A stretch of DNA of 64,000 bases from Bolinopsis microptera (taxonomy: Eukaryota > Ctenophora > Tentaculata > Lobata > Bolinopsidae): positions 6,404,858-6,468,857 of the forward strand of contig NC_087075.1 of the NCBI RefSeq assembly GCF_026151205.1, given 5' to 3'. The translations under genes were made by a program, and so were the position numbers. Numbering within the stretch: the stretch's first letter is position 1; every line of letters begins with the position of its first letter. Below the pieces are notes generated by a model. The model searched no databases. It saw only the letters and a list, made by a program, of their open reading frames with translations, and was not told the origin of the DNA. Shown here piece by piece: positions 132 through 51,800 of the stretch.

Positions 132-453
132 TAACCCAGCACAGAGCCCTAACATTGGGCCCTAGCAAAAAATTAATTAATCAATGAATTAAAACATATA
201 ATATTGTACTTATAGAAAATATATCACTCTTAAGGCTCCTTCTCCGAGCTAATGACTCTAAAGTTCCTGATAACATGAACTTTGTCAGGCTCTGCTGTCC
301 TTTTATTGAGTAGTTGGTCGACAACTTTCTTTCTTGAAAATAAAACTGTTGTAATTTGTAACTCTTCTGGTAGTTGTTCTCAGATTTTGCCACCATAAGT
401 ATGAAAGTGATACAAAACTTAAACTAAAACTGAAATAACTTAATTTTGTGCAG

Positions 454-3169: not shown

Positions 3170-3708
3170 AATAAAAGATGTCTTGACTCTGTGGAATTAC
3201 GTTAACAAAGTCAAGATGACACGTGATACTCACGTAGTCAGTAACAAATCTACACAGTAAGACGGTGATCATTATTCAGAATTTATTTAAAGGTACCACT
3301 ATTTTAATAAGAACCGAGATGTCCCCACTTGCACTTAATTGGAGCTGATAACAGAGTAAAATGACCCCTTTTTTTACAATGATGTTGAAATTCATATGTG
3401 ACAGTTCTGTGCTGTTAATATCAGTCTTAAGCAATGTGACGAGAATTTGTTTTGTATCATAAAGAGGACCAATTCTCTACAAATTATTTTATCATTTGAA
3501 TGATGTTAATTTTATTTATATTTTGATTTATATTTCATTCATTTTTATCTTGCATTCTGACTGCTTATACACCTTATGTTGCAAAAACAACCCTCGATTT
3601 AAATACAATTAAAATATTATCAACCATTAAATATTTGCATGATAATTCCACTTAGAAGTTTGCTTTAGAAGATAAACTTTAAATTAAACCACCTTAGAGT
3701 AACATGAC
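3170..3708. other. Intergenic region, presumed ATP9 promoter
   Basis: This 540-bp stretch lies between the stop of the upstream gene and the ATP9 start. It holds the AATAAA of the upstream gene at its left edge. The rest is AT-rich and I see no TATA box or other site that I would defend. Confidence 0.4.
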
Positions 3709-6700
3709 ATGGTTGAAGTTGTCATTGCGTTGGAGCCGTATGAGCGCGGCGGCTCAGTGCTAGGTAACGGTACCGACTCTAACACAAGGAACAGAAGTTC
3801 GGCTACTCCACTTCTCGATAAGGACTCTGATAGGTTAGTTTTCAATCCTCATTACTTTATTTAATACTAAGTCAATACTCATTACCGTACTTTGTTTAAT
3901 TAATTATGTAATATTCTGCTGTTGGAGTGATCATTGGTTGAGCACATTAAGCCCCGTATTAGTATGAACAGTATTACACTGAATTCAAGGAGGAATATAA
4001 AATATCGAATCTAAGTCCATTGTTAGCATTAATTCCTTATATAATATAATATAGAATTCTAAAGAATTCAAACCAGCTCGCAACGTATCAAAATATGTAC
4101 AAGTTCTGTGAGTTATGCCAGCAATCTAATATTATTATATAATATAATATACCAGTAACTGGTTACTGGTTACTGGTTACTGGTTACTGTTTACTGGTTA
4201 CTGGTTACTGGTTACTGGTATCCAGTTGAACAAGTAACTGTACTGGTTACTGGTTACTGTTAACTGGTCACCAGTTGAACAAGTAACTGTACTGGTAACT
4301 GGTAATTGGTAACTGGTAACCAGTTGATCAAGTAACTGTACTGGTTACTGGTAACTGGTTACTGGTTGAACAAGTAACTGTACTGGTAACTGGTAATTGG
4401 TAACTGGTAACCAGTTGATCAAGTAACTGTACTGGTTACTGGTTACTGGTTACTGGTTACTGGTTACTGGTTACTGGTTACTGGTAACCAGTTGATCAAG
4501 TAACTGTACTGGTTACTGGTAACTGGTTACTGTTAACTGGTAACTGTACAGGGTAGGTTTTAAGATGGGTTTGTGCAGCGTCCCAACCCAACCGAGCTGT
4601 TGTTTTCTTGTTTTTAGTTTTTGTGATGTAATATATTTTTTTCGCTACTACAAAAGTTTTACTCATATTTCAGCTGAAATAACTAATACGTCATGCATGT
4701 GCTTCTCCAATAATGGATGTTTGTGTCACCGACCGTATTACTTTATTAGTCATGATTACGACTGATTTTGTTCTTGAAACTAATTTTGTCATTGGGCAGC
4801 ATCCAGTTCATAAATTATTTTTCCGGAATTTGTATCAGAATTTGTAAATGTAATATATATCTCCAAGATCACCTACACTTATAAATATGAGTCTAGCATT
4901 CAATTAAAACTATTATGATTCCTAATTTACTAACCATTAAATATCTGTTCAGGATGTCTAGAGTTATAGTAAAGAATCTCCCTAAGACAATCACAGTCGA
5001 TCGTCTCATAAAGCACTTTTCTTCCCATGGGACTGTAACTGATGTCAAACTCATGAAGACAAAAGATGGTGTGTTTCGCAAATTCGCATTCGTTGGTTTT
5101 CAGAACGATGATGAAAGTCACAAAGCAATGGGGTTTTTTAATAAAACTTTTATCGATTCCTCAAAAATTGTTGTAGAAAGTGCCATCCCCTTTGGAGATG
5201 GGAATCTTGCTAGACCTTGGAGTAAGTACTCGGCAGGTAGCAGCGCCAATGATGCAAATCAAGGTAGCACTGCGATCGAAAAAAAGAGAAAGAAACTCAA
5301 GTCTGGCAATGAAAGTGACTCGGAGGATGAAGAATTTCAGGAATTTTTGGACGTTCACAAAAAAGATCGAACTATTTGGGGTAACGATGAAACAGTTATG
5401 TCTGGGAAGAAAAGGAATGTCGACGAAGCAGTTTCAGACTCCTCCAGTGATGAAGAATACGACCAAGAAGTTACAGGCTCTTCCAACAAGATTAAAAAAT
5501 TAGAGCCTTCAAAAGTCCCAACAACAGATGAAGTCAGTGGTCCAGAAATACCATCCCATCGCTACACCGTGGTGCTGAAGGGGATCCCATTTGCTGCCAC
5601 TGAGGCTGATATCAAAAAGTTCTTCCATCCCCTAGCATACAGAACAGTCAGGATGACTCTAGACAAAAAGGGTAGACCTTCTGGAAAATGTTTTGTTGAC
5701 TTCAAATCGGAATCAGATCTGCGCAAGTCTTTAAAATACAACAAGAAGTACATGGGTCCTAGATATGTTGAGGTATTCAGGGATACTGGAACCAAAGCTG
5801 AGAAAGATGGTGTTCCCCAGAATCAGCGAAAAAACTTTACATTCAGTTCCAATCTACCCGATGAGTCTAAAGATTCTGCAGACTCAGGGTGCTTGTTTGT
5901 CAGAAACTTACCTTATGAATGCACTGATGAACAACTGAAATCTCACTTTGAAAAGATTGGTCCTGTATCAGTTATTGATTTACCTCTGACAAAGAATAAC
6001 AAAACAAAAGGTTTCGCTTATGTGACATTCCTTTTCCCAGAACATGCCATAAAAGCAACGAATGAATTAACTTTTAAACCATTTCAAGGCAGACTCATTC
6101 ACATAATCCCTAGTAATAAAGTTGATGAAGAAGGTAATGAAGACGACAGCACTGATTTTAAGAAAAAGAAGCTGAAGAAACAAAAACAGTCGTTGCAAGA
6201 CGGAAAGTGCTGGAACACTCTTTTCTTGAACCAGAACGCAGTTTCAGAGTACTTAGCTCACCGGTTGAAAGTCTCTAAAAGCGATGTCCTAGATCCGAAC
6301 AGTGAAAATTCCGCAATTCAACTAGCTCTGGGAGAAACTCAACTTTTACAAGAAATTAAAGAATTCTTAACAAATGAGGGTGTCATCCTGGACGCTTTTA
6401 CAAGTTCAAAACGCAGTAAGAGGATAATCGTCTGCAAGAACATTCCATTCGGTACACAAGAACGTGAACTTAATGAGCTCTTCAGTGAACACGGTAGTAT
6501 AGGCCGACTAGTTCTACCCCCTACTGGTACCATTGCTCTTATAGAATATCTCGATCCTTCAGAAGCAATGAAAGCTTACAAAAAACTATCCTACTCCAAG
6601 TTCAAGCATATTCCTTTGTACTTAGAATGGGCACCCGAGGAAACCTTTTCAGAACAGTTCAAACCATCCGACAAAAAAGTGTATAAAACAGTTGATGAGG

Positions 6701-9700
6701 ATCTTGAAAATATGGAACATGCTACGCTCTTTGTCAAAAACTTAAACTTTGATACGACCGAGGCACAGCTGAAAGCTTTCTTCGAGAAGAGTGGCAGTGT
6801 CACAAGTGTTTCCATTGCGAAGAAGCCAAGTCCTAAATCAGCAAATGGTTTCTTGTCAAGAGGCTATGGCTTTGTTGAATTTGGTTCTAAGGAATCAGCT
6901 AAGGATGCCATGAAAAAGTTAAATGGTAAGCTCCTTCAGGATTATGCGGTAGAGTTAAAACTTTCTGAGAAGCAAATATCGAAAGTACCTGAAACTGTAG
7001 AAAAGGCACGTAACCTCAAAGAGGCTTCAGCAAAACTCCTCATTAAAAACATTCCGTTCGAAACCACAAGGAAAGATCTCCGCAAACTATTCAGTGCCTT
7101 TGGTGACATTAAGCATATTCGCCTACCTAAAAAGCTGGCAGGAACTGGAGACCACCGTGGATTTGCTTTTGTGGAATTCTCATCCATCGCAGAGGCTCGC
7201 AAAGCATTCGAAGCAACCGGTGACAGCACTCATATCTACGGTAGAAGGCTTGTGGTAGAATGGGCTAAGGAGGACGCTACTGTTGCTGAGATGAGAGAGA
7301 AAACTGCAGAAGTGTTTGTTCCGACAGAGGTGGAAAAGAAGAAGAAAACTGTTCAAGGATTGGAGATATCGTGAAAACACAAAATCTTTTTCAGATGGAA
7401 TTTTAACAATCGAAAATGTATGAATTTTCTTTTAATGGAGTTAATTGGAATTTTAGGCCTTTACAGCTTTTCAATGATAGTTGATTTCATATTTTAGGGA
7501 CACTTTTTAGAGGGAGATTTAAGTTATTTTATGATCATCTCTGCAAGCAGTTTTTACTTTAATTTATTGACATTGTCTCAGCTTTACAAAACTTACTGCT
7601 TATCATTGATTCTATCAACTCAATTACATAATATTCGCTTGCTAAATGAGAAAGTGTAGTTACCGAGTAGTAAATGATGGATAATTCTAAAATTTAAAAA
7701 TATCAATCTTATCAGCATTCGCTTTAATGGATCTGACTTAGTGACAAATATCATTCTCTGAGTGAAACAATTCGTGCATAATCATTACCGTACATAATTA
7801 TAACTGTGGATAATTTTAAGTTAACCGTTTTGATGATAACCTAAAATTGAAGCAAGTACTGACAGAATGACTCCAAGTTCAATACAAATCAGATGATGGT
7901 GAATGTAACTACACTTTTTCTTCCAGCGACGACTCATTCGACGAGGTTATCTACCAGATACAAGCTAGAAATAAGAAATACCAGCACAAGAACCAGTACT
8001 CCAAGCCCGGCATGTCTTGCACTCAGAGGTAGTGAATTAGTGATCATTAGTGATCATTAGTGACCATTAGTGATCATTGTTATGATTTCTCTTGCTGATT
8101 CTGTGTGAATTTTTCTTTGTCTTTGTTGATTTCCGCCATTTCATAAACAAATAATACGTCATAGATGATAATTTGCTGGAAACCTTCTAAAAGAATTCAC
8201 ATTGAATTAATTTTTCGGTTTGTTATTTTCTTTCTATTCCTATAATATCTCACTGCTGATTTCTAAGCATAAATGCAATATTTGAAAGTTATAAGCTTGT
8301 TACCATCATGTCAGTTCTATCGTCAGTTTCTTAAATCTTTCAACAGGACGAGACATGCAATGCAATTGTTGTGTCATTTATTTCCATACATAATCAATTA
8401 ACTTTATACATTATAAATAGGTAAAAAACGTTACCATTTTTATCACGTCATACCCGATTAATTATTTCTCACTTCTACTCATGAAGATAACTGTTGCTGG
8501 CTGATGAGGAAATATGAGCTGTGTAAACAAGTGTTGCATGTTGGGCTCTTAGCATAAATAGAGAACTGGTTTGCATGGTTCATTTCTCCTGTATCATGTT
8601 GTTCTTTGTTGTTCAGTGATTAATCAAGATATTCGACGAACCGGGTCATTAAAATTCATGGACACCACCCTTTGCCTTTTGTGAGTTCTTTAGATTGTAT
8701 CAATTGCTGCCATTATTTTGTTAAAAAATCTACGGCAGCAATGTTGAATATGTACACACTATACAGTATACACTATACACTATACACTATACACTATACA
8801 CTATACACTATACACTATACACTATACAGCAGTCGTAAGTTATTACATACCTCTTAATCTATTCAATAAAATAATACACAATATTACTGTATTACTTAAA
8901 TCTTACTTAGGGGTCGTTCACATATTGCGTAATCAGTCGAGGGGGGCCGGGGGGGGGGGGGGTTCTAAATGATTACGCTAGTGTAATTTTGACACAAAAG
9001 AGCAAAAGCTATGTGTAAAACTGATTACGGAGGGGGAGGGTGGGGGTTAAAAATCGGCCAAAAATTGATTACGTAATATTATGTGAACGACCCCTTATTC
9101 AGTAAATTATGGGTATAATCTACAGAGTTATGCTGAATTGCATTCCTTTGCACAAAGAAGGGGGTTATGTAATGTTAGGAGTATATTGTAATTTGTATGC
9201 AAACAATAGAGGCTTTAGCCCACTTACATTGTACATTGCATTGTACATTGTACATTGTACATTGCTCCTGTACAGTGTACACATTGAACATGTTTGTTGT
9301 GTTACTGTTTACTTTTGTGAGTGTGTATTTTGTTTTGTTTATGCTGACTATAATAAATGATGAACTGTGTGATCTGCGGGAACTGTGTGAACTGTGTAAT
9401 CTGTGTGAACTGTGAACTGTGAAGATGTCCTCTTTAACAAATGAAATCAATTCATACAGTATAATATCATTATTAAATCTAAGACTATATTTTAGATTAA
9501 TGCCCCCATCGTTTCTAAGGTAAAACCTGACATAACATTAGCAACAACTGCAGTTGTGATAGTGAATTTATTTTCCAAAATTATTAAAAATTTTTAAGTT
9601 TGAAACAGCCTCTTTATTAACTTAAAAAGATATCTAACACGTTTAAGTAAAGTTTTCATATAGTTTTCAGTTCTTTACAGCTATACCACGTGACCAGTGA

Positions 9701-9874
9701 CCACGTGACCAGTAACGTTTCTTTATATTTTAACCATGTGACCAGTAACGTTTCTTTATATTTTAACCATGTGACCATTAATGATGAAACTTTTTCAGTT
9801 GCGGACAATGCCTGGGTAGTATGAACTGTTGTAAACCTCCTGAGCTATTGGAGAGGAAAGTCTTCCTTGGTCAG
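3709..9874 (+). CDS. ATP9: ATP9 exons 1-3: cytosolic N-terminus
   Basis: Exons 3709-3833 (phase 2 end), 7927-8028 (phase 2) and 9799-9874 (phase 0) encode about 101 residues. They hold an acidic [13 protein letters not shown] stretch and a Cys-rich [11 protein letters not shown] segment, then the LERKVFLGQ lead-in to the conserved core. The same order (acidic leader, Cys-rich patch, 'TVxLG') is found in animal ATP9 proteins. An overlapping frame from the ATG at 3704 stops quickly and is not used. Confidence 0.85.
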
Positions 9875-12800
9875 GTATATAATTTGGAATATAACTTATT
9901 TCTTAATACTTTATGGACATCTTGTTTTGTGTTGTACAGTTGTACTGTCAGTACATCATGTATCTAGTTTTCTGCTTTAGTTTTATTTGCATAAGCGTGA
10001 ATCAATAGAACATTTTTATCGCTAATTAGAAAAATCTGAATTATTTAAAACTAGACAATAAACTAAAACTATAATAATCCTATATGATATATAAACATCC
10101 TATATTAGGGGGGGGTCCACGTTAAAAAAGTTAAATTCTAAGATCGAGATTTTGGAATTTAACATTAATTACTTTAACTTTTTTAACTTTTTTAACATAA
10201 ATTAAAAATCAGATTTTGGCTGACTAATCGGTTCAAATTTTAACATAATTACCCAAATTAAACTCAATTATGAGTGTTGGCCTTTAGTACTAGTAGTACC
10301 TCGCTCTTGCAATTGTTTTCTGTAGTTGTAACTGATTTGATAACTCTACAAAAAAAAACACCTTGTATCTATATATATACACATAATTGTATAATTTACT
10401 AATATAATCATTCATATAATACGAAAAAAGAATATGGCTTGGCGGAAGGGTTATGGAAAGTCTCACATACGACAGATGTTTACGTTGCAATTTAGCGAAG
10501 GCATCAGGAGAGTCGCTCATTCGCTTGAAGGGTTCCTGTAGCTGTAATCCCTGTACCCGAACCATCTACTGAGGACACATCATCAGGTATTGATACTCCG
10601 GAGCTTCCTCCAGCTGTAATCCCTGTACCCGAACCATCTACTGAGGACGTATCAGTTGTTGTCAACACTTCAAAAAGGGCTGCTGATTCATCAAAACCTA
10701 GAACTCAATATGATTCTGAAGACGAATCATCTGCTGATGTTATCACTACTGCGATAATAACAATCAACTCATTCAAGAGGAGAGCTGTCCCTACTTTTAG
10801 GATTCCAAAGATTAAGAAACCGACGGTGCAAAGCAAATTGACGATTATGGATAAATCTTCATCGACGGGTCTGAAGAAGAAGGAGCATTTGCAGGCTAAC
10901 ACTGATAATTTAACCACGAGAACTCCCACAGTAGACAATTCTAAATTCACAATTGGACGACCAATTGATGTTGATAAGATAAACAGCAGCAAGAAAGTGT
11001 TAAATTCAAAGAAGGAAACAGCACTTAACACTCCGGTGAAGTAGAAAGTATACCTAACCCACCACCTCCGGTAAGATTTTTGGACTGTGACTTTGGTGAA
11101 CTTTCTTTTGATGAAATCTACCGCGAGCTTGACTTTAACATGAAACACCCGGGGGGCCGTTCAACGTCATATTTTGGCTCGGTACCTTACAGTTATGGCA
11201 GAACCAACCACCGTGCATCCCATGATAAGCCCTTGCCACCTGTCCTACAGCGCATTTTTGATTGTTTGCATAAATCCGATCCTGACATTACTCCCACGAA
11301 CTACACCTGCCTCTGTACTTACTATAAGGACGGGTCAGTTGGTATTCCATTGCATAGTGACAGCGAATCTAGCATTGTAGAAGATAGTCTGATTTACACT
11401 GCATCATTTGGCTCTACCAGAATTATGAGAATGTCAACGTCGACAGGCCCTTTCGTTGAGCATAACATCCCGCTTGAGCACGGCTCTGTCTTTGCAATGT
11501 CTCGATCTGATCAGAACCACTGGCAGCACGGCATTGAACGTGATCCTATGTTAAGGCAGCCACGAATCTCGCTCACTCTTCGCAAGTTGAAACAGCCTGA
11601 TCCCACGGCCTTGCCAGCACCTGCAGCCCCTACTCGGGTCCCGCCTGTTGCACCACCTACACAGATACAGTCACCAACGTCCCGTCACTCCAGAGTCCTC
11701 TTTATTCACGACTCAATACACCGAGAAACACCAGAATGGCTGTTCGACCAGATACCTGGCCACCGATGTCAAAAGCGCCTTAACTATCAACTAGTGAACT
11801 CACTGGAACATCAACATGAGTTCAAACATTCTAAAGCAGTCGTACTTTCCTGCGGCATTAATGACCTAGCTAGGTATGGGCAGTCGGCCAGGAGTCTTGC
11901 GGACAATTTCTGTCCCCGTTTTATAGACTCTTGTAACAATAACAAGAATACCGAGTTTATGTTTTGTGCTTTATCTATGACTAAATTTAACTGGTTGAAT
12001 GCAGAGATTGACGCTTTTAATATCATAATGTTGAACCTGGCTAAGGATATTCCAAATCTGAGTTTTTTCGATGCCCATGCCGTGATCAAGCGTGTTAACT
12101 CATACTACGTATGGGACCGCAACGACAGACATGGCATCCACTTATATCACGAGGTGCAAAGGGTAGTGGCACATGAACTTGTTAACTGCGTTGGCAAGTT
12201 ATGTGGATCTGAACAGAGACGTCACAGGAACTGTGAGTGGCTCTATCACCACAAGCCTAACAGTCTCTCCAGATATAACCGAAGCTGAGCGCTTTACAAA
12301 TCATTGATACCATTCTGATTAAAAAATACGATTCAATTTTTTCTCAACTTCCAGTCCACCTTTAACAGATCGTTACCAAGATAGATCATATAATGAAATG
12401 ATCTGATTGGTGGAATTTTTCTCATTATCTGATAAGCTCATCCATTATCAGTATCTCTTATCACCCGATCGCACACAAAACATCTTACTCTACAAATCTG
12501 TATCATCCTAAATCAATGAGATTTCATAACTCTATACAACATTCAAAATTCACATACAAATCTATAAATAATCAAGTGCGCTCTCTTCAGTATTACTCAA
12601 GTTCAGTGCGATAGTCCCTTATTACGTAAACGCTACAAACAAATCAAATACAAATAACACCTCACAAAACTACACAACACAAAAGCAACCACTTTATTCG
12701 ATTTCTATTTTTTAGCCAAATCAGTTATTTAAATCATACTGATAAGGCCCTAGATAAGGACACTTTATTTCACTTAATTATCCGATTTTAGCTTAAAATA

Positions 12801-15800
12801 ATATAATTTACTTTTAAATCATATCACGATTCTGTAGCATACAGGACCTCCGGTTCTCGTGAAAGAATCTGATTTGAACTATAGTTTTATATACTATCAG
12901 TATCATAATCATAATATTTAGTTATAAATGGAACCCACTGTTACATCTGAAAACAAAGTCAAGATCAAATGTTCAAGCTGCAGCGGCTGGTGTTACTCTA
13001 TTAGAAATATTCGCACATGCTCATGGTGTCAAAGTAATGTCCATGTCAAATGTTTTAAGGATAATTTAGGCTGTACGAGTTGCTGTGAAAGTATCATTCC
13101 TGGATTTCACGCAACCTACTATGAAATCTATGACGACTACAGTAAACTTAATAGTGACATATTTAATCCGTACGATCAGAATAGTCGATTTAATCTTATT
13201 GGCGACGCCATGACCAACGAAGAGCATCAAGATTCAACTTGGAGCAATATTTCATCTTTCCTAACTAGTTGTCAGTATAAACAACAACGTAACGTGAAAA
13301 AATCTACCTGCTCTCAACTTAAAACATTTTCTATGAACATAAGATCCCTTATTAAGAATATAGATCAACTACGTGATGATATTGAGACTTATGATAAGTA
13401 TGATATATTGTGTTTTAACGAAACTAATTGCACTTTAGGGAAATTACCGAACGGAATAAACGACGTTACCTTAGATGGATTTCATGAACCATTTATCCAG
13501 GATCCAATTCGCCCATCTGGAAAAGGTGGGGGGCTAGCCACTTATGTACACAAACGTGTAGTCGATTATGATAAAATTGATATTTTCACTCCAAACCCTG
13601 AACCAACTAATACTAGTGGCGAATTCCAATTTATCAAGCTCCATCAGTGCAAAGGATACAACAGAACGAAAATAATTGGCAATGTTTACCGTTCTCCCGC
13701 TAGGAGACCTGAAGCGTTTCTAGAAATTTTCAAAAATACGCTGCACAACCTAGGGAGACACACCCGTAAACATATGACGCTTCATGGAGATTTCAACCTT
13801 GATTTACTGAAGCATAGCAGCGACCAAGCATGTCAGAACATTATAGATATTGCGTCCTCTTACGGTTTTATTCAAATTGTATCACGCCCAACTCGCCTAA
13901 CGGACCATAGTGCCACGCTTATTGACCACATCTACACAAACAATCTTGAGGATACAATAAGCTGTAACGTCTTAACGACAGATATGTCTGATCACTTAGC
14001 AATAGTCACTACAATAAATCTTGATAACACGCCAACCAGCAGCTACCGCTCTGCGTCTAACTCACAAAATGTATCTCAAACTGAAACACGTAGATTTAAC
14101 GACACCAACAATCAAAAATTCAGAGACTTAATTACAGATGAAAGTTGGTCAGAAATTTTTAACAATACCAATGATGCCAACGAACAGTTCAATAATTTAA
14201 ATACGGCTTATAATAAGATTTACGAGTCTGCCTATCCCACAAAAAGACAATCACGAAGACAAAATGAACGTGTTAATCCGAAACCATGGATGCTGCCCTG
14301 GCTCGAAGAAGCTATAGAACGTAAAAATGAGTCATATTATGATTTTGTTAAGGAACCATCTGATAGTAACCGCAGTAAATATGACCGTCTGAAGAAGTTT
14401 TGTAATAAACACATCGATAAAGCTAAAAACAAGCACTTCAAAAAATTTTTTGAGCAAAACAAAGAAAATTCTAAGAAGCAGTGGCAAATGATAAACAGTC
14501 TTCTTAATAGGAAAAAATCTAAACATACTTCAATTAAACTGACTGACGAAGACGGCTCAATCAGCACTCCGGCAGCTGTAGCAGAAAAATTTAACGATTA
14601 CTTCTCAAACATCGCTCCTAAAATTAAGTCTGAAATTAGTAGTAGGACCACTTTTGATCCTGGTGGAACCCATAGCACACTTCGCAACGCCACTCCAAGT
14701 AGTATTTACTTAAAGCCAGTCACTGCCACAGAAATTCAGGACGTCATAAACCTGCTTAAGAATAAAGCCACACTAGACACTAAAATTGAACCTCTAAAAA
14801 TCGCTAACAGCTGTCCCAGTTTTACTAGTGTACTAGCCCACGTTGTCAACAGTTCTTTTGAACAGGGGATCTTTCCACAGGCTTTAAAAGAAGCGAAGGT
14901 GGTCCCAATTCACAAAGGTGGATCTAAATCTGACATAAAAAATTACAGGCCAATATCTCTTCTTGCTTCTTTCTCTAAAGTATTTGAAAAGCTAATGCAT
15001 AACCGAGTTATAAGTTTTTTAGATAAATACAGCATACTATGTGAAAACCAATACGGTTTTCGCCCGGGTAGGTCTTGTGAACATGCTCTTCTCAACGCAA
15101 AAGACACCATTCTTAATTCAATGTCTAAAAAGCAGGTAACTTTACTTCTTTTAATCGACTTCAGCAAAGCTTTCGACCTTGTGGATCATTCCATACTCTT
15201 GCGCAAGCTGGACCATTACGGCATAAGGGGTCAAGCCTTAAACTGGTTTAAGTCATATCTCACTAACAGGAAACAGTTTGTATCAATTGGCTCGTCAAAA
15301 TCTTCAACCAACCAAATTTTATACGGCGTGCCTCAAGGGTCAATATTAGGACCTTTACTTTTTATAATCTACATAAACGACCTGCCTCAAATATCAGATA
15401 TAGCAAATTTCATTATGTACGCAGATGATGCCAACATCTTCCTGATAGGAGAAAATCTTAATGAAGTTTACGATAAACTAATAACTCTTAGCGATGCTTT
15501 AGTTAAATGGGTAGATAATAATGGTTTAGCTCTCAACCTTAAAAAAACAAATTATATGATCTTCTCTCGACAAAGAAATCTTAATTATCGTGATGTGGCA
15601 ATTTCTGGTGTCACAATTGAGAGAAAAACAGAAGCCCGTTTTTTAGGAGTTATAATAGATGATAAACTAAACTGGTCCCATCATATTTCTGCCATGAAAA
15701 TGAAAATGTCCAGATACATAGGAGTCATGTACAAACTTAAAAAATATCTGCCTCTCGAAGCACGTCTTCAAATTTATCAAAGTTTTGTGCAGTCACACCT

Positions 15801-18800
15801 TAATTATTGCAGCCTTGTATGGGGCTTTGCTGCCAAGTCTCATATTGAATCGCTTTTTGTAAAACAGAAAATGGGCCTTCGAGCAGTATTACCTGGTTTC
15901 GTCAATTACTGGTACAAGGACGGTATCCCCCCAGCAAGTACCAAGTCTGGCTTTTATTCACATAAAATATTGACAGTACACAGTATCATTGTAAAGAACG
16001 CACTCATTTTAATGCATAAATTGAAAAACTTTCCTAATCTAGTACCATTGTCTCTCAAGAAAACAATTCCCAAAAGTGCACCATTATTTAATACTAACCT
16101 GGATTCTATTCTCACTACACAATGGTCAGAAAAGTATGGTCAACACCCTTACAACAACTCAGTATTTTTTAAAGGTCCATTATTAGCAATAAACCGATAT
16201 AATGTTGCAGCAACTTCCCCGCCTAGTCTATTTAACCTGAACATTTACAAAACTTGTATAAAAACTATGCTCATCGATCAGCAAAATGAAAACATCGAAG
16301 ACGATTGGCCTAATTTCATGTTATATGTATAACAGGACTAAGAAAATCAAAGCGTAACATAAACCAAAATGCCGATAATAACCTTGTCTCTACATCTTAG
16401 ATTACATGCACACACTTATGCATCACTCAATAAACGTCGCATATCTCATCAATTACACTGCCAACATAGGACATTATTTTTTATCGCCGCGATTTCAAAT
16501 CAAGTTACAAATTCTACAAATTTTGAAGTGCTCAGTCTTGTTTTACTTTTCTTATCTTTATCTATTAACCATTGGAAAATAAAACTTTAAATTATAAACC
16601 TTCATTGCATACTTTACCGGTAGAATCTAAATTGAATAGTTTGAGATTTCCTTTACATTTTATATTTATGCATGTGCCCCACGGGGATGAATTTCTTATT
16701 ACCATTGATATTATATATATTTTTTGAGTAAACATTGGCTGGTACCACGGGCCAGTCCCCAACCAAAACAAGTTGTCTACACGACTCATTGAAGGTGGAA
16801 CTGCAATCAAGAATGAGAATCAGCAGGGAAATCGGGACAAATTGAACTCTAGAAATACTCCTCCAACAAGTTCTCTGAGTACAATTAGACTGCCAGTACA
16901 CGATGGAAAAGGTGATAAGCCTGTGATTGCGAAGAAAGAGACTGTTTTAAACAAACTTTCTACAAGATTCGCCACAGAAGATGGCACTTCCACGCCGAAA
17001 AACAAACTTTGTAAGGAGAAATCCGGAAGAAAGGCGCTCGATGCCGAAACGATTAAAGATAGATGCACGGTCAGGACGAATTTTGAAATTGAATTGTGGA
17101 AGTGTAACGACATGGTACCTGGCCAGATTATCAAGGCCAAAGCAATTCAACGGGTTTTATTCAGACTTGGGTGTTCTTTAGAGGAAGCTTGCCTACAGAA
17201 TATATACAATATTTTCGGAGGAAAAAAATCCAGGTGTCCTACGTTATCAATTGTGCGATCCATGGAGCGGGTATTAAGACTAAAATCTAAGAAAAGACGT
17301 CGTCGGATGATGAGTATTTTACCTACCCCGGAATGTCAGAATGGAACAAAGAGTACAGATGATGTGGTGCAGAATACTGTGCATCAGCCATGCCCAATAG
17401 CTAGAGTGAAACCAATCTTGTCATCGGAAACTATTCAATCTATTCCAAAAATACAAGGAAAGCTGTCTACTAATTATGTCCATGCAAATGTGACAGGGAA
17501 GCATTCTTTTGCCTTTATTTCCCACATTGCGGTAATGCTAGAGTTAACTAGATCACTAGGTCTAAGCAATTTGAAAAGTTGTGACGATGAGGAACTTGTG
17601 CATAGATCGTTGAATGAAATAAAAAATAATCAGGATTCAAAGAAATATCTAAATGTAATTGATAGCGCGGAAGATATTGAAAATGAAGTCCCTGAAGTCT
17701 TAAAGCAGGTAAAGAACCTATTGGGGTGTGTGAAAGTGAAACAACCAGATCGAAGTTCTGTTTCAAAACATAGATGCTCTCATAATCTAAAGAGCCATTT
17801 AGCCAGTTATATAATATAATAACATCTATAAACAAAAGAGCACCTAAAGAGGCTCAGCAAAGTGCTGGCCTATTTACGCTTACGAAGACTCATTCGTTCA
17901 ATATGTCTCAAAGTAAATAAACTCCTCCATCCTACTCTATCTCTTGCTAAGTTCACTAAGTTGGTAAAATCATCTTCATTTTTTAAATAAATTTGTCTCT
18001 TAAATAGGTCCTTTTTCACAATAATATCATACAAATTAGTCCTGTGTCTACCCACTCGTCCCTTTAGTGTTTGACATCCTAGTGTAGCAAATAACAGAGA
18101 CTGGTAGGCAGGTGTGTCGTTGTCACTGCGTAGAACATGACCTAGCATTGCCCACCGTGCCTTTTCCACTCTCTCGTAAAGGGGCCTGGTCTGGGTACGA
18201 GCGTAGAGGGCCTTGTTAGATATTGAGCTAGGCCAATATATGTGTAGGATGCGCTTGAGGTGCTTCCTCTGAAGAACATCTACAGACTCTAAAACATGCT
18301 GAGGTACGGCCCAGCAGCAGCAGTTGTACAGGAGCACTGATACTACTAGTGAGTCGTAGAGTTTGATCTTTCTCTTCTCAGTTATCTGACTCCTCTCTGA
18401 TCCCTGGCACCACAGCTTGTCAAATGACCAGAAGGCAGAGTTAGCTTTATTTATTCTATTAGTAACATCCTGCTCTGATCCAAGCTTAGTATCAAGAAGC
18501 GTCTCGTTTCTCCACTCCTCTTTTCCTCTTAGTTCATTATCCCACTCGTCACAGGCACCAACTTCTTCTAAATACACTCTGGTAAACTTTGTCTTTGTGT
18601 CATTGACAAAGAGACTCCATTCACTGAGAATATTCTTGGAGATCTGAAAGATATCCTGTAACTCCTCCATATCTTCACCAATCTCCTCTAAATCGTCTGA
18701 ATAGCCGGACTCAAGAGGCATGTGGTTATCGGCTATCGGAGGGTTGGGTCTTGAGGGGAGGACTGCTCTTATGTGCACTACAGCTCCAGCTAGATTGAGG

Positions 18801-21800
18801 GTAAACAATTTACCAGCTGTGCTGTCTCCTTGGGAGGCTCCTATGTTGAAAGAGAACATCTCTGAGTCAGTAGAACACACTCTGACTACTAGAGTGGTGT
18901 TAGCCATGAGGTATTGTACAAGCCTCAGGTCGTCTCTGGAGCATCCTGCAGCTTCTAGTAGTCTGATTGTTGTACCTCTGCGGATGGTATTGAAGGCAGC
19001 TGACATGTCGATACTAACTTTGTTCCATTCAAACTCCTTCTTCATTACTACAGATATGAGCATGCTCTGTGCCCAAACTAGGTCGGCACTGCTCCTGCCA
19101 GCTTTGTAGGCAGCTTGGAACGGTCCAGTGAAGTTGTCCACAGCTCTCTCTATTCTGTTTAGCACTATCAGTGACAGGATCTTTCTAGAAACATTCAGCA
19201 GGGTCAATTGCAATGGTCGTATCGACTTAACTGGGCCACGAGTTTTACCAGGCTTAGCCAGTGGTGTGAGGATGCCTGCTCCTATTGCTTCAATGTGAAT
19301 GTTTTTCTCGAAAGACTCGTTGAACACATTAGCCAGCTCTTCATGAAGGAGGGGGTTGTTCAGGGCTTTCATGACCTCGCCAGGAACTTTATCAATACCC
19401 ACTGCTTTACCAGACTTGAGTTTACTGATGGCTCTCTCTATCTCTGCAACGGTGATGGGACTGTTAAGGCTAGATGGGGGGTCAAGGAAGGCAGGAAGGG
19501 TAGGCTCATCAGCGTCATTGAACTCAGCTTCAAAGTACTCCTTAATAATCCTCGCTTTCTCCTCATTAGTACCTGCGATATTCCCAGCAGGGTTGTGGAC
19601 GGTTAGAGCTGGTCTAACATATCCTTTGGCGAGTATCTTAGAGGCTCCAAAGTATCTCCGGGCGTCGTCTGTGTTGTTTACCTCTTCGACGAGTGTGTCA
19701 GCACTGCGGTTGTTGATATCTCTGAGTCTCTTTGTAATCTTACGTCTCAGCTGGTTGATGTTGGTCTTGACATGCTTCCTGTTGGTCGGGAATTTGTTCT
19801 GCATATTAGCAATCATCAGCTGCTTGCGTTCAAGTGACAGTTCAGCGATCTCAGGATCAGTACTGAAGGATTTGTGCTTTTTTTAGCCAGTTGTTTGGCC
19901 ATAAGAGGTAGCCTCCCTAGTCTTGGGACATCAGGAATGTCCGAGGAAGAGATTATTGAGGAACATCTATTTTCATTACTGAATAATGATGTATGTCGTG
20001 ATATAATGAAGATTCCTCAACCGTATGATGTTAATCGTATTACAAGTGAAGTTCTAAAATATATGAACGACGATAAGGACTCGGCTGCACTATAGTGAAA
20101 ATTATTTTAATGATAGACTTTTATATTCAAGTTAAATGATATAAGTAACTTCAAATTAGAACCTCAAGTTCTTTTATTTACGTTATTACAGTAACACCTG
20201 TAAAATTTTTACTTCATTGACACTGTTTTTTAATTTTGTAATATAATATATTGACAAATTGTTTGAGCGATAACTTTTACATTGAAACATCATTAGACGT
20301 GACTCTTTTTAACTTTGTAATATAATATCGTGACAAATTGACTCATTGTTTGAGCGATAACTTTTATGAAATATCATTAGACACTATTTTAAATTTTGTA
20401 ATATAATATCGTGACACAGTGACTCTTTATTCAGTTATTAATTCATTACGATTAGTATCACTAGATTTAATGATATAGATTATCATAGCCCTATTTTCAG
20501 TGTTGACACTGTGAATGGAATCTGTTGTTTTTTAAAAATTATTTATGAATCAGCTGTTTATATTTCTATGAATTATAATTTTTTATTGTAATGATCAAAT
20601 GTATCAATTATTTATCGGTTGTACCTATGTTATATGACTGTTTTACTCTTGTCATGGGCATTCCTATATTCCTACATGTAATGACTAATGAAGTAATGAA
20701 CAAAAATACCAACGCATGACCTAAAAGTAAACTAGTCTAGAATATTCACTCCATTGCAATGTCAACCCAAATTTGAATTTATGTTAAAAAAGTTAAACTT
20801 TCTAAGCCTGAATTTTGAAATTTAACATTAATTAGTTTAACTTTTTTAACTTTTTTTAACGTGGACCCCCCCCTATATTATATCTTTTTAGCCGACACCA
20901 ACGAAGTTTGCTAAGAATGAAGTGAGAAATACCAAATATAACCTGTTGACATTCATCCCCAAAGTTTTGTGGGAACAGTTCAAGGTAGGTTTTGATTTAA
21001 TTTAGTTAAATAATTAATTTAAACTTTTTAATTTTTGTATTCTTTGTGCGCTGACAATCACTATTCAAGTACTTAATTTAATTTTCTAACGTATTTTGAT
21101 GAATTTCTTGTCTTATCTTATCTTATCTTATGAGGATTCGTTGCGACGCAACAAGGCCATCGAATGAGTCGACCACATTTGTTATTTTATTTCGGCATTA
21201 CCTGCATTACAATGTAAACCAGCACTTTCAAGGAAGAGCTTTACAAGAAGCCGAAGGATCGTTCCTAAGGCCAGCGACGGTTAAGGCACTATGCCACACT
21301 TTCTTCGCCCGTGGCTTCGCTGTGTTGATCAAGCACAGCTCCTCATTTAACCCTCACACCCGATTTCTCGAGCATTCGGCTGAGTGAACCGTGGGGCTAC
21401 ATAGACCACTCGGGATCCTTAGCAGAGCGTCAACGACGCTCACCCCACGACTAGGCAGGCAGTGGGATTCGAACTCGCAACCTCACGATTACAAGGCCGA
21501 TGATTAACCAACTGATTAACCAACTGCGCTACCTGGCCGTTTTTTTCTCTCACCAAACTTACACATTATGATCATGCTATCATGTTGGAAATATTCAGTT
21601 TTACTAATTGGTTAATTAATCAAATAACTAATTAATTAACGAATTAACTAATTAACTAACTAACTAACTAACTAACTAATTAACTAACTAATTAATTAAC
21701 TAATTAACTGATTAATTAACTAACTAATTAATTAACTAATTAACTAATTAACTGATTAATTAACTAACTAATTAATTAACTAATTAATTAACTTACTAAT

Positions 21801-36800: not shown

Positions 36801-39800
36801 TTCCAAGTACCCATATATTGACTTCTTTCTTCCATAGACCATAATCTGTCGCATCATTCAATACTGGTATTCTTTCACTACCCATCTTTACTTTACTTTA
36901 AACTTTACTTTTCTTTTACACTTTACTTTTCTTTGACTCCTGATGGTTTTCTTCCTGCTACCACTGTTACAACCTATTCCTGATACACAATTAAAAGGAA
37001 TGTTAATACAAAATAAAACTCGGAATTATAATAAATAAACTGAAATAGAAGGTGTTAATAAATTAACACTAGATATTATAATAATTCACTTACTCACTAA
37101 CCTCCCTAGACCTGTACCCGATTCCCACTATAAACTAACTACTAACTAACTACTTACTAAAACTACTACACTAAAATATCACCAAATAATATCCGAACTA
37201 AAAGTCTTTACTTCCTACTAAAATATATTACTAAAACTATGTTTATACAAATTACACTTCTTCGTTACTATCTTCTTTCTTCTAGTTGACTACTACTTAC
37301 ACTCCTAGCTACTGTTTACTATATCTTCTTATCTTCGTTCCACACTCCACTACAATACTACACACACACTAAAAACACCTGAAATATGATTCATAAGTAA
37401 TACAATAAATATGAATCATCTACAACATAAGAGATATATAAACCTACAACTATCATCAATCAATATAAAAGAATAAACCTAAACTATAACCTACACTAGA
37501 ACCTACCGGTGTTCTACTACACTATCCACGAAGGACTTCGCAGGCTGGTACACCTTCTACACAGCACTGTTACTCTAACACACCTTCTGTTACTCCTTCC
37601 TCGTTGGATCTCTTCTTTACCTCTTCTTCACCGTGACACCTTCTCACATTAGCTATAATATATATTTATAATACAAAGAATAATCTTAGAACTCATATAT
37701 TATAACATCCTCTACCTTTTTAATTATTATATTATTCAATGTCAGTTCTAATTCATTGGTGTTTGAATCTGGTTCATTTCTACAGTTCGGCTTAAAGTGG
37801 ATATAACAACATTTCTTTGTGTTGATATGCAGCAAGTTACTCTTCATATATTGATGAACAAGTTTAAGAATTTTGTTAGCTTTGCAGTAAAGTGTTTTTA
37901 TACATTTATCTACAACAAATATGTTGGTGTCATCGGCAAAAAGTATAAACTTACCTAGGTCTGATACTCTATATATTTCATTGATGTAGATAATGAAAAG
38001 CAAGGGACCTAATACTGACCCCTGAGGCACACCAAATATTACAGACAGTTTTTCGGATTCTTCTCCAAGTACTGAAACATATTGCTGTCTATTAGAGAGG
38101 TAACTGGCTATTAATTTATTTGCAGTCCCTCGAATTCCATAATTATTCAGTTTTTTAAGCAGTTTATCATGACAGATTGTATCAAAAGCTTTACTTAAAT
38201 CAATGAAGATGCCTAGTACATGATTTTTATCTCTTAGTGATTTTTCAATGTAGTCGACAGAGAAGTTAAGTGCATGGCTTGTCGAATGATTTTTTCTGAA
38301 GCCATATTGATTTCATATAATAATCCTTGCGACTGAAAGAAACTGTAAAGCCTGGAGAATATAATTTTCTCAAGTATTTTACCAAATATCGCTAAGGTTG
38401 AGATAGGCCTGTAATTTTCAAGAAGCTCAGCATTTTCTTTCTTATATATTGGACTTATTTTACCTACTTTTAGGTCGTCTGGAAAAACTCCCTGTTGCAT
38501 ACATTCGTTATACAATACCGATAGTAGTGGACTAATTTTGCCTGATACTGCCTTTACTATATGTACTGGTATATCACTAGCCTTGCCATTCTTAAGTTCC
38601 GATATGATCTTAGCCACCTCTTCAGGTGAGCAGTCATGTAGATATATATATTAGCTGTATTCGATTTAGGTAAGAGGTCACAGAAACTTGGAAGCTGATT
38701 AATTTGTATTTCTCCTAGTTCTGTGTAGGCTGCATTAAGGTTAGATGCTAGGGATACAAAATACTTATTGAATTCATTCGCTATAACTCTGCGATTAGTT
38801 ATCTTTTCATTGTCTATGGTAAATATAGGTCTGATATCACGTTTCTGTTTGCCACGAATTTTATTTATAAGTTCCCAGGTTTTCTTGGAGTTTCCCTGAG
38901 TTTCAAGAAACTTGTCAGAATAATATTCAGATACAGCCTTTTTACGAACCTTTTTTAGAGTCTTTCTATATTCTTTGTAGTCATCATAACGGTTTCTTTT
39001 ATTACAGCAGATAGAACACAGGCATGTGCCCCCTTTTGTGTCAGTTTCGCCTTGTTTACACTTAACTTTCCTGACTTTCGCCCAGGCATCATACAGTCCA
39101 TGGCAGTGGTTTACTGAGGCTATAATCCCGCCAGTAATCCAGGGGTTGTTCTGCATAGTGCGCTTAGTGGTTTTGGGTACAGCTAGTTTGCAGGTTTCGT
39201 CAATGCTGTTTTTAAAGATATTATGAAAGTTGGTAAAATCTATAATTGGTTCATTATCTAGTTTATTACCCAAGACTTCAGCAAATTTATCAGTGTTTGA
39301 CTTACAATAGTCATAATATTGAGTGTGCTTATGAATATTTTTGGTCTTGCTAATTTTCCAGTCAGATATATTAAATATAGGGAGGTGGTGAGATATGTGA
39401 TCAGTTATGACTCCAGAGGCAGTAACAGAGTCTAGGTCATTTGTAATGATGTTGTCGATGCATGAGGCATTACATCCAGGCTTTTCATGAGTTGCTAATG
39501 ATATCAATGGGAAGAAGCCTCTACTGAATAGGACGTCTTCATACTGTGCAATAATGTTACTGTGTTTACCATGGAGATTAATGTTAAAATCACCTGCAAT
39601 GTGTGTATGTTTTGGTGCTTTATCAAGGATTGACGACAATTCTTGGAGAGCTTGCTCAGCATTGCCACTTGGAGGGCGGTATATTACTCCTATAGAAGTA
39701 GAATTTCCTATACTTCCTATGGTTACAAAGAGGGTTTCTAGATTTTCTGTTACTTGTGACAGGTTGTTATTTTTAACAGCATTAAAGGAGTTAAGGACAT

Positions 39801-42800
39801 ATAGAGCTACTCCTGAGCCTTTTACTTTCGAGTCAAAGGTATCTTGATAGAAGCTCTCATAGCCTGTGAGTTCGTACAAGTTTTTCAATTCAGGGCCAAG
39901 TGCCAACATTTGTTTCAGCAAGACCAATTACAGAGAATTTGTTAGTAAATCTAGCTATTTCAATTGCCAGCGAGTCAAAGTTTGATTTGTTGCCATCAAG
40001 ATTTTGAAATATTAGTGAGTTTTGCACTTGTAATTCGTGAGCAAAGGTGTGGTTTATGCCTTTTACAGAATATGAGTCACAGCTTTCAAGTACCTCAGAG
40101 ATTTTACGTGTAACATCATCTGCATCAGTGTTATCATCATTGTCATCATTCAGAAGCTTGAATGGGTTATAACGGATTACTGCTAGGTGGAGACAATTAT
40201 TGCAGTACAAGTCAACTTTTTGATTTTGTTTGTCACTGGTGTTATAGCATCTAGAGTGAATGGGACAGTTACAGTTGTAGCATTCAAATATAGATTGACC
40301 TAGATAGATACTTTTTAAACAGTGGGCACAGACCTCTTTTTTAAGAACATTCATACTGGAGGCTGATAGCCTTCAACATGAGGCTGTCCTCCGGCGGCAT
40401 GAGAATAAAGTGTTGAACCAACCTTACCGTCCCTCCTCCCCCTCTTCCTCCTATCAGTCCCTCCATGCATCCTAACAAGGACAGTATTACGGATTAAAGT
40501 AGCAAGTTTGGCCACTCCCTTCCAATTAAGGTGCAGGTAATCCGTCCGGCCATATTTGTCAAACTCCCTGGACAAGGTTGGGCAAAGTAAGCCAGTGTTA
40601 TTATCCAGGAAGTCATCAAAGCCATCAACGAACTGGACACCAAAGTTTTTGGGAAGTAGCTCACGTCGAATAAGCTCTATAAAGTATAGAACTTTCCTAT
40701 TTAAGTCAGTATTTCGAGTTGGTAAAAGTGGACAAAGAAATACTTGAGCAGTTGGATTGGCCTCTTGGATTTGCTCAATCTTGAATTCTAAAAGACTAAA
40801 TATAGCAAAAATTTCACGTTGAGATTTAACAGATGGTCTTCTAACATCATTAATACCACACATAATAACAACGTTCTTGTATCCACATGCAAGATATGGG
40901 TTAATGTCATCTATTGTCGGAGTCCAAACATTCCGACCAGGCAGCCATTTACCAAAGCTCCTCTTGTGATCCTCTCCAAATTTCATACCTGATCCGTTTG
41001 AATCAGAGAAGATACAAGTACTAGCACGATTCTTTCCGTCTATTGATCTGAAAGTAAAACTATATCGTACTGCACCAGTGACTGACCCCTTCTGGATAGA
41101 GTGCTTGTAGTGAGCCTGACTCCTTCTGGTCATCCTGTAAACTGACCTGGGGGTACACTTGTGTGTGTGAACTGAGTTGTTCATTTCAGTGAAGAGGACT
41201 TCGCATTCACCTCCAATGGAAAGAGTCAATATGCTAGATTCTGGATGTATCACTGGTTCGTTGTCAGAATGTTCTGGCAGGTAACCCTCGCCTTCTTCGT
41301 AGCGGTTGATCAACACGCTATTCGTTACAGGATTTTCTTCTGCACAGAACTTCTCATTAATTTTCAGGATGAGCGCAGCCAGTTTCTCCGGTATTTCTGC
41401 ATTTTTCTTGTTCTCATCCCTGGATCCACTGTATTTGTATTTCTCTCCAAACGAACACACTGAGTGCCCATTCTCCTTGCTGAACTGAAGAGATTCGCAG
41501 TACTGGAGAAGATCTGATTCAGCATCACTGTCTATGAATTCTTCCACTGTGTCTGCCACAGGTTTTTCTTCATTTTTAAAGATGGTCTTTGATAGAAGGT
41601 GCTTATCATTTAATGCAGAGCCAGATGATGGCTTATCGTGAGGAATTGTAGTCTGTTGGGTAGACAGTTGGTCTAGAGACTGCTTGATTCCCTTCAGTTC
41701 AAGAGAAATGTGCGGTTCCTGCCGAGTATGTTCATCAAGCTGGTCAATGATATCATGTATCAGTTTCTCAGTGTCAAGCTTGGGAGCAGTAGATGAGACA
41801 AGACCTTTGGTGGAAAGATCAGTGATTTGTTTCTGAAGGTCCTCAATAGCCGTTTTAACACCATTCACATCTTCACTTAGTTCTCCTTTACAGTGGTCTT
41901 CTATGCTTTTGACCCGGTTTTGATGGTCTTTCAAACCATGTTCATTGGTTAGTAGGTGTTGCAAGTGAAGGTCGAGGTTTTGGATCACCTGGATTGACTC
42001 TTTCATTTTATCAACATCAATTGTTGATAGTGATTTTGTCAAGGTTTCCATGTCTTTGAGGTTCTGACAGGCAGAGTGTACCTCATAATCACTATTGGAC
42101 TGTTGTAGACTCAGGGTGTTCCGACATTTGTAGCAGAAGTTGTCGTGTGAGTTGGTTGGTACAGGTGCTACGTAGCAAAATGGACATAACCACTGTTCCA
42201 GCTTCAATATTGACGGCTTCGTGATACCCTTTAGTCCCAGACAATCTGCATGCCAGTTCTGTTTGCATCCTGTGCATACTAGCTTGAAGCTTCCAGTATT
42301 CGACTGGCTACATGGGCATCTATCAACATTATGATGCTCTTTTTTAGTGTTTTGCCCTGTTCCTGTCACAGAGCCACGTCTATTTCCGGTAGATGGTGTT
42401 TTTATACCTGTACCTGACATCACACAGCCAAGCAACACACAGCTAATAAAGACAGCACAGCAAACAAACAACGAATTACTCACGGCTCCCCTTTGGGGGT
42501 ACTAGTACATGCTATTCCTGAACTAAAATTATTTGTTATATAGCAGCGCTGAAAGTATAAAAAAGTATTGTTATAAGTGTATCATGAAAATAGTCCATAA
42601 ACTTCTGTATTTAAATATTCGTTCTTTAACGTCACGATTTCAGGTTTTGGAAAAATTGTCAACTAAATTAATGAATTTTGCTCAATGATATTGATTCCTC
42701 ACTTCATCATCTCACTAACAGGTATTTAAGAAGTTACACTTGGGAACAGTCTCGTTTGGTACCGAATCCTTTCCTGAAGTAAAAGAACATCTTACCAATG

Positions 42801-50745: not shown

Positions 50746-51144
50746 GGACCCCAGGCTATTATGTTCATTAACATAAAATAGAGATTAGGCGGAATGACAG
50801 GCTGAGCGCGGCCCATGCCAGTAAAGTACCGTTCGAGTGCGAGTGGACGCAACAGTGAATTAGCTTAAACCGCGTTATTTTTGAAGTGCTGTTCAATTCT
50901 TAGTCCAAAACGCTAACAACCATTTTAATTTTGAAAAAATATTTAAGTATTGAAACTGCATCATCATCAACAATAAATATTCAAGACAAAGTGAAACAAT
51001 GGAATACCGGGTCCCGAAATTCAAAAGTGTAGCCAGTGTTTGGTATTGTTCTCTTTTTTTGTTTTTTTGAAGAATATGAACAATAACATGAATAATGAAT
51101 TTTAAAAATCTCGTCACAACTAATACTATTTCTTCCAAAACCCT

Positions 51145-51795
51145 GCACACTGTGAACAGTACCGTTCACAGTACCGTTCACAGAACCGTTCACAGTACTA
51201 GTCGCAGTACTGGTCACAGTACTGGTCACAGTACTGGTCACAGTACCGTTCACAGTACCGTTCACAGTACTGGTCACAGTACCGTTCACAGTAATGATCA
51301 CAGTACTTTTCACAGTACCGTTCACAGTACTGGTCACAGTACCGTTCACAGTACTGGTCACAGTACTGGTCACAGTACCGTTCACAGTACCGTTCACAGT
51401 ACTGGTCACAGTACCGTTCACAGTACCGTTCACAGTACTGGTCACAGTACCGTTCACAGTACTGGTCACAGTACTGGTCACAGTACCGTTCACAGTACCG
51501 TTCACAGTACCGTTCACAGTACTGGTCACAGTACCGTTCACAGTACTGGTCACAGTACCGTTCACAGTACTGGTCACAGTACCGTTCACAGTACCGTTCA
51601 CAGTACTGGTCACAGTACCGTTCACAGTACTGTTCACAGTACCGTTCACAGTACTGGTCACAGTACTGGTCACAGTACAGGTCACAGTACTGGTCACAGT
51701 ACCGTTCACGGTACCGTTCATAGTACTGTTCACAGTACCGTTCACAGTACCGTTCACAGTGCTCTTCACGGTACTGGTCACAGTGGTCTTCACAG
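51145..51795. repeat. 12-bp two-letter minisatellite
   Basis: About 54 units of two main types, ACCGTTCACAGT and ACTGGTCACAGT, in an irregular but recurring order. Because 12 is a multiple of three, several frames stay open on both strands (encoding HSTV/HSTG or NGTV/TSTV repeats); I do not regard these as genes. The array ends a few bases from the stop codon of the coiled-coil gene. Confidence 0.95.
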
Positions 51796-51800
51796 TACTG

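Follow-up and report, generated by a model that had tools for sequence, protein, structure and literature searches.

A LINE ORF1 joining an AlkB domain to an SGNH-like domain

In the ctenophore Bolinopsis microptera, the first open reading frame (ORF1) of a long interspersed nuclear element (LINE) encodes an AlkB-type Fe(II)/2-oxoglutarate (2OG) dioxygenase followed by an SGNH-hydrolase-like half, with purifying selection acting on the AlkB part. The element, LINE A, lies in a 64,000-nucleotide stretch of contig NC_087075.1 (positions 6,404,858 to 6,468,857, forward strand), hereafter the window, whose own numbering is used below. Both domains share one frame, and an ORF2 with endonuclease and reverse transcriptase (RT) follows, giving the layout of a LINE. 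By its ORF1 domains, we label LINE A as CR1/L2-like (Jockey superfamily). Its features, all on the + strand, are:

11032..16766, +, LINE A (family A1), a 5'-truncated copy inserted into another repeat; ends placed to within a few bases
11029..12288, +, ORF1, C-terminal 419 codons of a 593-amino-acid (aa) frame
11185..11583, +, AlkB (2OG-FeII_Oxy_2) domain, residues 53-185
11353..11361, +, HSD, Fe(II) ligands H109 and D111, aligned to the ALKBH3 HSD
11527..11529, +, H167, third Fe ligand by ALKBH3 alignment
11563..11583, +, R179-x5-R185, 2OG binding by ALKBH3 alignment
11602..12285, +, Pro-rich linker followed by the SGNH hydrolase-like half; weak PF13472 match below cut-off, profile match to 4c1b and PAF-like hydrolases
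11710..11715, +, DS, SGNH block I with the nucleophile Ser, invariant in 11 representatives
11854..11865, +, GIND, SGNH block III, G and N invariant in 11 representatives
12130..12141, +, HGIH, SGNH block V with its His; a His also stands in for the Asp normally found three residues earlier
12928..16332, +, ORF2, endonuclease and RT (RVT_1 1.6e-36, Exo_endo_phos 6.7e-7)

The AlkB domain matched its Pfam profile at an E-value of 1.7e-19 and 71.2 bits (curated cut-off 31.2) and ALKBH3 at 3.6e-16. Profile ranking placed ALKBH3 first, followed by ALKBH2, ALKBH8, AlkB and then entries named '6mA demethylase'. A fold predicted from a two-row alignment of window sequences (predicted local distance difference test, pLDDT, 65.2; predicted template modelling score 0.65) lay nearest to ALKBH2 and ALKBH3 by Z order, while a single-sequence prediction for the whole 419-aa frame reached a pLDDT of only 37.8 and was uninformative. 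By profile E-values and fold Z order, the predicted nearest relatives of the transposon domain are ALKBH2/3. The AlkB identity claimed in an earlier, purely sequence-based reading of the window (the original prediction) is upheld by the Pfam match, the ALKBH2/3-like fold and the aligned catalytic residues. A chance motif is ruled out by the Pfam, ALKBH3 and profile matches.

The second half matches its reference profile only weakly. Its E-value against Pfam GDSL was 0.0017, or 0.00046 for the half alone, both below the cut-off, and none of the seven ORF1 proteins compared with this profile reached the curated cut-off. Thus, of the two profile matches anticipated by the original prediction, 2OG-FeII_Oxy_2 was clear and GDSL/SGNH fell short. 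The motifs were largely kept: in an alignment of 11 of 14 rows listed (L065, L073 and L066 set aside; L067, L029, L074 and L079 not listed), the Ser, Gly-x-Asn and His were invariant in all 11. Block II read PG in eight rows, including the window LINE A; its Gly was absent from L071, L072 and L078. The block V Asp was present in six rows (LINE B, L007, L014, L075, L076 and L077). For LINE A, these data point to kinship with SGNH proteins; we do not claim a proven hydrolase.

The original prediction had the ORF1 fusion spanning 10434..12288. Profile, fold and aligned residues bear out the fusion, and the motif positions given are right when counted from a TTG at 11080; the extent had to be abandoned, this copy being 5'-truncated and nested. 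A start at 10434 is ruled out by the truncation near 11032, inside ORF1, and by the nesting. An intact copy, L065, matched at 99.5% over 5,627 columns from window 11032 to at least 16657, where the L065 stretch was cut. Its ORF1 is a 593-aa frame whose N-terminus differs from that of the window copy, and such a frame was present in nine of 14 close LINE A copies. ORF2 spans 1134 codons in the window and 1157 in many other copies. At the 3' end, '...CCAGTCCCCAAC' was common to four LINE A copies.

The interrupted repeat could be traced on both sides of the insertion. Matches to its upstream half (10529-11041) ran to residue 167, or window 11029 (30 matches, 29 of 29 candidates scored), and those to its downstream half (16728-17816) began at residue 14, or window 16767 (40 matches, 112 of 112 scored). 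The two halves were joined in one 516-aa frame at C13:10980516-10982063 and other places, with a 3-base overlap. We read such a locus as an empty site; any target-site duplication would be no longer than a few bases. Together, the edge of the L065 alignment and the empty-site frames identify the window copy as a 5'-truncated insertion within another repeat, and by this comparison region 10434-11031 is not LINE sequence. The host repeat (10529-11029 and 16767-17816) had no Pfam match, and most of its long uninterrupted copies were 95-99% identical. It is adjoined by a convergent RT ORF (17870-19816, -).

Spread through LINE families and a Helitron

The search for other LINEs with the fusion, suggested by the original prediction, yielded a second element in the window (LINE B), many families across the genome and also a Helitron. 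A PF13532 profile search of the genome (264.65 Mb, 232 contigs) gave at least 151 AlkB matches, with 150 of 587 candidates scored. The listed hits of this search and of those with ORF1 and ORF2 of LINE A fell on contigs C1-C13 only, at megabase positions; the genome also has 17 matches to Wnt exons, which mark it as that of an animal. Among 30 loci fetched, 27 lay in repeat ORFs (13 in the L007 group, seven in the Helitron group, six in the L028 group, plus L014) and three (L001-L003) were host-like single genes. L014 has a close copy, L073, and an ORF1 PHD finger match under the Pfam cut-off. Searching with the LINE A ORF1 gave at least 101 matches (100 of 773 scored); those listed included 14 rows of family A1 at 98-100%, a family of 607-aa frames at about 69% and more distant ones at 34-39%, many of them aligned across both domains. 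A further nine representatives were retrieved and read. Altogether, roughly a dozen near-identical copies, spread over several contigs, had AlkB and SGNH fused in a single open frame, and diverged families had the same fusion.

ORF2 of LINE A had at least 44 matches (41 of 7235 scored). One of these lay 633-808 bp downstream on the same strand for 18 of the 26 A1/A2 ORF1 matches; the other eight had no partner among the ORF2 matches listed, and one of them, L033 on contig C6, carries an internal deletion. Relatives of the LINE A ORF1 and ORF2 and of the L007 ORF1 were not found on viral contigs.

These copies bear on whether the fusion is an artefact, be it a chance motif, a join made in assembly or a host ALKBH gene that neighbours a LINE. 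The truncated and nested state of the window copy might invite such a reading. It is already refuted by the recurrence of the fusion in one frame across near-identical copies and diverged families, with the host-like L001-L003 separate, and we give it a negligible chance. A host ALKBH gene beside a LINE is ruled out on the same grounds.

A different LINE has a similar composition: L066 (1052-7121; kin L017, L020, L021, L026-L028 and L079) carries AlkB, a long linker and SGNH motifs, and its ORF2 is 25% identical to that of LINE A over 466 columns. In the window, LINE B lies on the - strand:

40351..42501, -, LINE B ORF1: PHD, long linker, AlkB, SGNH
42175..42318, -, PHD finger (4.4e-5, 23.8 bits, just under the curated cut-off of 24)
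41047..41448, -, AlkB domain (PF13532 2.2e-14, over cut-off)
40516..40899, -, SGNH match with Asp-x-x-His kept (PF13472 1.3e-5, below cut-off)
37686..40372, -, broken ORF2: Cys/His-rich start (by eye), endonuclease and fragments of RT, continued by an RT remnant at 29960-30220

The AlkB domains of LINE B and LINE A were 25% identical over 183 columns. The LINE B ORF2 is interrupted by a young Copia-like long terminal repeat (LTR) element (30220-37707; 747-bp repeats 99.9% identical; 1539-aa polyprotein, -). Elsewhere in the window, 4915-7374 is a single 819-aa open frame with six RRM domains, which we take to be RBM19/Mrd1-like, and 51095-51841 is a degenerate tandem repeat array open on both strands (248- and 290-aa frames).

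The Helitron (F24 group) combines a Helitron_like_N (Rep) domain and a PIF1 helicase in one frame, as seen in L067, the sole copy scanned. This frame spans at least 3,206 aa (383-10000, running off the fetched stretch), in the order GDSL_2 (1.2e-5, under cut-off), AlkB (7.1e-21), DUF6570, Helitron_like_N (5.1e-22) and PIF1 (1.1e-21). The SGNH-AlkB order is thus swapped relative to the AlkB-SGNH of the LINEs. By similarity, L005, L015, L019, L022, L024, L029 and L030 are kin of L067.

Conservation, selection and trees

The five Fe/2OG residues of AlkB (H, D, H, R, R) were invariant in all 14 representatives, as were Y31, Y76 and E90. This alignment comprised 14 of 18 available transposon rows, with near-copies L065, L073, L079 and L029 set aside; three A2 rows carry the Fe site as HND instead of HSD. 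Such constancy argues against AlkB having become a nucleic-acid binding module that is no longer an enzyme, as binding alone would not need these residues. Enzyme folds can persist for binding, as in the non-catalytic SGNH protein Oskar (PMC3905857), and we consider this alternative very unlikely.

Ratios of nonsynonymous to synonymous substitution rates (dN/dS; Nei-Gojobori, 15 pairs) supported purifying selection on AlkB, as the original prediction had proposed checking across copies: values spanned 0.055-0.326 in the pairs giving a ratio. Between diverged LINE subfamilies they were 0.126 and 0.151 for A1-A2, 0.116 for the window copy and A2, 0.159 for L007-L077, 0.158 for L007-L023, 0.057 for L066-L079 and 0.055 for L028-L017; the Helitron group gave 0.215 and 0.180. 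An AlkB domain intact in so many element families probably helps the elements to spread.

The AlkB tree (19 rows: 16 transposon and three host copies) was poorly resolved. The L066/L079 LINE group sat with the three hosts, apart from the other transposon rows (99/97, with long branches flagged); a split with all 16 transposon rows on one side and the hosts on the other had weak support (83/78). A LINE clade without the Helitron was not rejected by the approximately unbiased test (p-AU 0.099 for 14 LINE rows, 0.312 for 12 rows without L066/L079). The AlkB of the L066 group, placed with host ALKBH copies, may represent a separate capture; these trees do not decide between one capture and several.

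A possible role for the fused protein

LINE ORF1 proteins in general bind element RNA, and marks of the 1-methyladenosine (m1A) and 3-methylcytidine (m3C) type stop reverse transcriptase. We tentatively propose, as a reading with a little less than an even chance of being right, that the ORF1 AlkB demethylates the element's own single-stranded nucleic acid (m1A/m3C type) while the SGNH half tethers the ribonucleoprotein (RNP) to membranes. ORF1 protein would coat the element RNA, and its ALKBH2/3-type domain would remove Watson-Crick-face methyl groups (such as m1A and m3C) from the RNA template, the first-strand cDNA or both. The gain for the element would be that these methyl groups otherwise halt reverse transcriptase or flag the molecule. 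The original prediction suggested that the enzyme may repair or demethylate the element's RNA, or act on chromatin; of these, kinship with ALKBH2/3 and purifying selection favour a catalytic role on nucleic acid. The SGNH domain would anchor the RNP at lipid membranes, in the manner suggested for ZfL2-1, whose SGNH part is argued to bind membranes (PMC3905857).

Several observations weigh against this proposal. Helitrons transpose without an RNA template and this one shares both domains, so repair of the template does not by itself explain why both classes carry them; a target that would fit both element classes is single-stranded DNA (intermediates), mRNA or a host target. The substrate itself is one that we infer. 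The Asp before the block V His is missing in five of 11 rows (HGIH in LINE A and L045; NGIH in L071, L072 and L078), and the A-group hydrolase may therefore be weak or non-catalytic. For AlkB, dN/dS was higher in two close pairs (0.251 for L014-L073, 0.326 for L077-L023), and the ratios are rough because dS was high (1.7-2.0 for A1-A2) or saturated (infinite in four of 15 pairs, giving no ratio).

The shared Helitron domain would also suit a mark faced by all elements. AlkB might then erase a regulatory host mark that silences the element, either N6-methyladenosine (m6A) on its RNA or, on DNA, a mark like 6mA. PHD fingers in the ORF1 of LINE B and L014 (both under the Pfam cut-off) are in line with this, as is the ALKBH5-like protein of an orchid Ty3/Gypsy element, described as demethylating m6A in vitro (PMC9289625). 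Here, however, the kinship is to ALKBH2/3 and not ALKBH5. In human cells, moreover, m6A is reported to help L1 and ALKBH5 to suppress it (PMC7873242), which makes the benefit of an m6A eraser to a LINE less than obvious. We judge a host mark to be a somewhat unlikely target.

A third possibility is a different target altogether: AlkB might act on a host protein or a tRNA, or deal with alkylation damage to target-site DNA while the element integrates. The substrates of AlkB homologues are diverse, and the profile also matches ALKBH8, a tRNA modifier. The closest profiles are nevertheless those of nucleic-acid repair members, and we saw no feature suggesting a protein target; we regard this alternative as quite improbable.

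Beyond demethylation of the element's own nucleic acid, AlkB and SGNH might form a portable module, shared and rearranged by several LINE lineages and a Helitron. It would act as a counter-modification kit against host base methylation of transposon nucleic acid, and would point to a ctenophore defence, based on modification, that has not been described. This broader idea is speculative and, in our estimate, unlikely.

Comparison with known systems

A limited literature search, judged by titles and the beginnings of abstracts, found no paper on AlkB in a LINE and is a weak test of novelty. To our knowledge AlkB has not been reported before from a LINE, nor, with no literature search behind this, from a Helitron. 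Other selfish elements also bring 2OG dioxygenases that act on nucleic acid, namely AlkB in some plant RNA viruses and TET/JBP in fungal transposons; these belong to other hosts and other element classes, and have no known SGNH partner. ALKBH2 and ALKBH3 are the best sequence, profile and fold matches and share the same Fe/2OG residues, but they are stand-alone host enzymes, whereas here the domain sits in the ORF1 of a selfish element.

In having SGNH in ORF1, upstream of an endonuclease-RT ORF2, LINE A resembles the Type IV (esterase) ORF1s of CR1/L2 elements such as ZfL2-1 (PMC3905857, PMC4120745). PHD fingers are also described in CR1/L2 ORF1s (same sources). Metcalfe and Casane sorted 448 Jockey-superfamily elements into five ORF1 types and report esterase ORF1s only from two vertebrate groups (PMC4120745); LINE esterases are also described from cnidarians and sponges (PMC3905857). 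Type IV ORF1s differ in having no AlkB, as far as the main texts of PMC3905857 and PMC4120745 go, neither of which contains the word 'alkb' or 'dioxygenase'.

Of all parts of a LINE, the ORF1 protein is the least well understood. That selection has preserved an AlkB domain in many families suggests a limit on transposition in this animal, set by methylation or alkylation of bases in the nucleic acid of the elements, and the domain offers a direct assay for such a limit. With a Helitron reusing the domain, the range of substrates shrinks to those common to both classes.

The closest parallel is in Phalaenopsis, where Ty3/Gypsy elements carry an ALKBH5-like AlkB ORF, described as an m6A demethylase in vitro (PMC9289625). 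Both cases are retrotransposon-encoded AlkB proteins with intact Fe/2OG residues. The orchid protein is ALKBH5-like and comes from a separate extra ORF of a plant LTR element; in Bolinopsis, the domain is ALKBH2/3-like, fused with SGNH and carried by an animal LINE as well as a Helitron. The LINE would represent a second, separate use of AlkB by retrotransposons, with kingdom, element class and AlkB subfamily all different.
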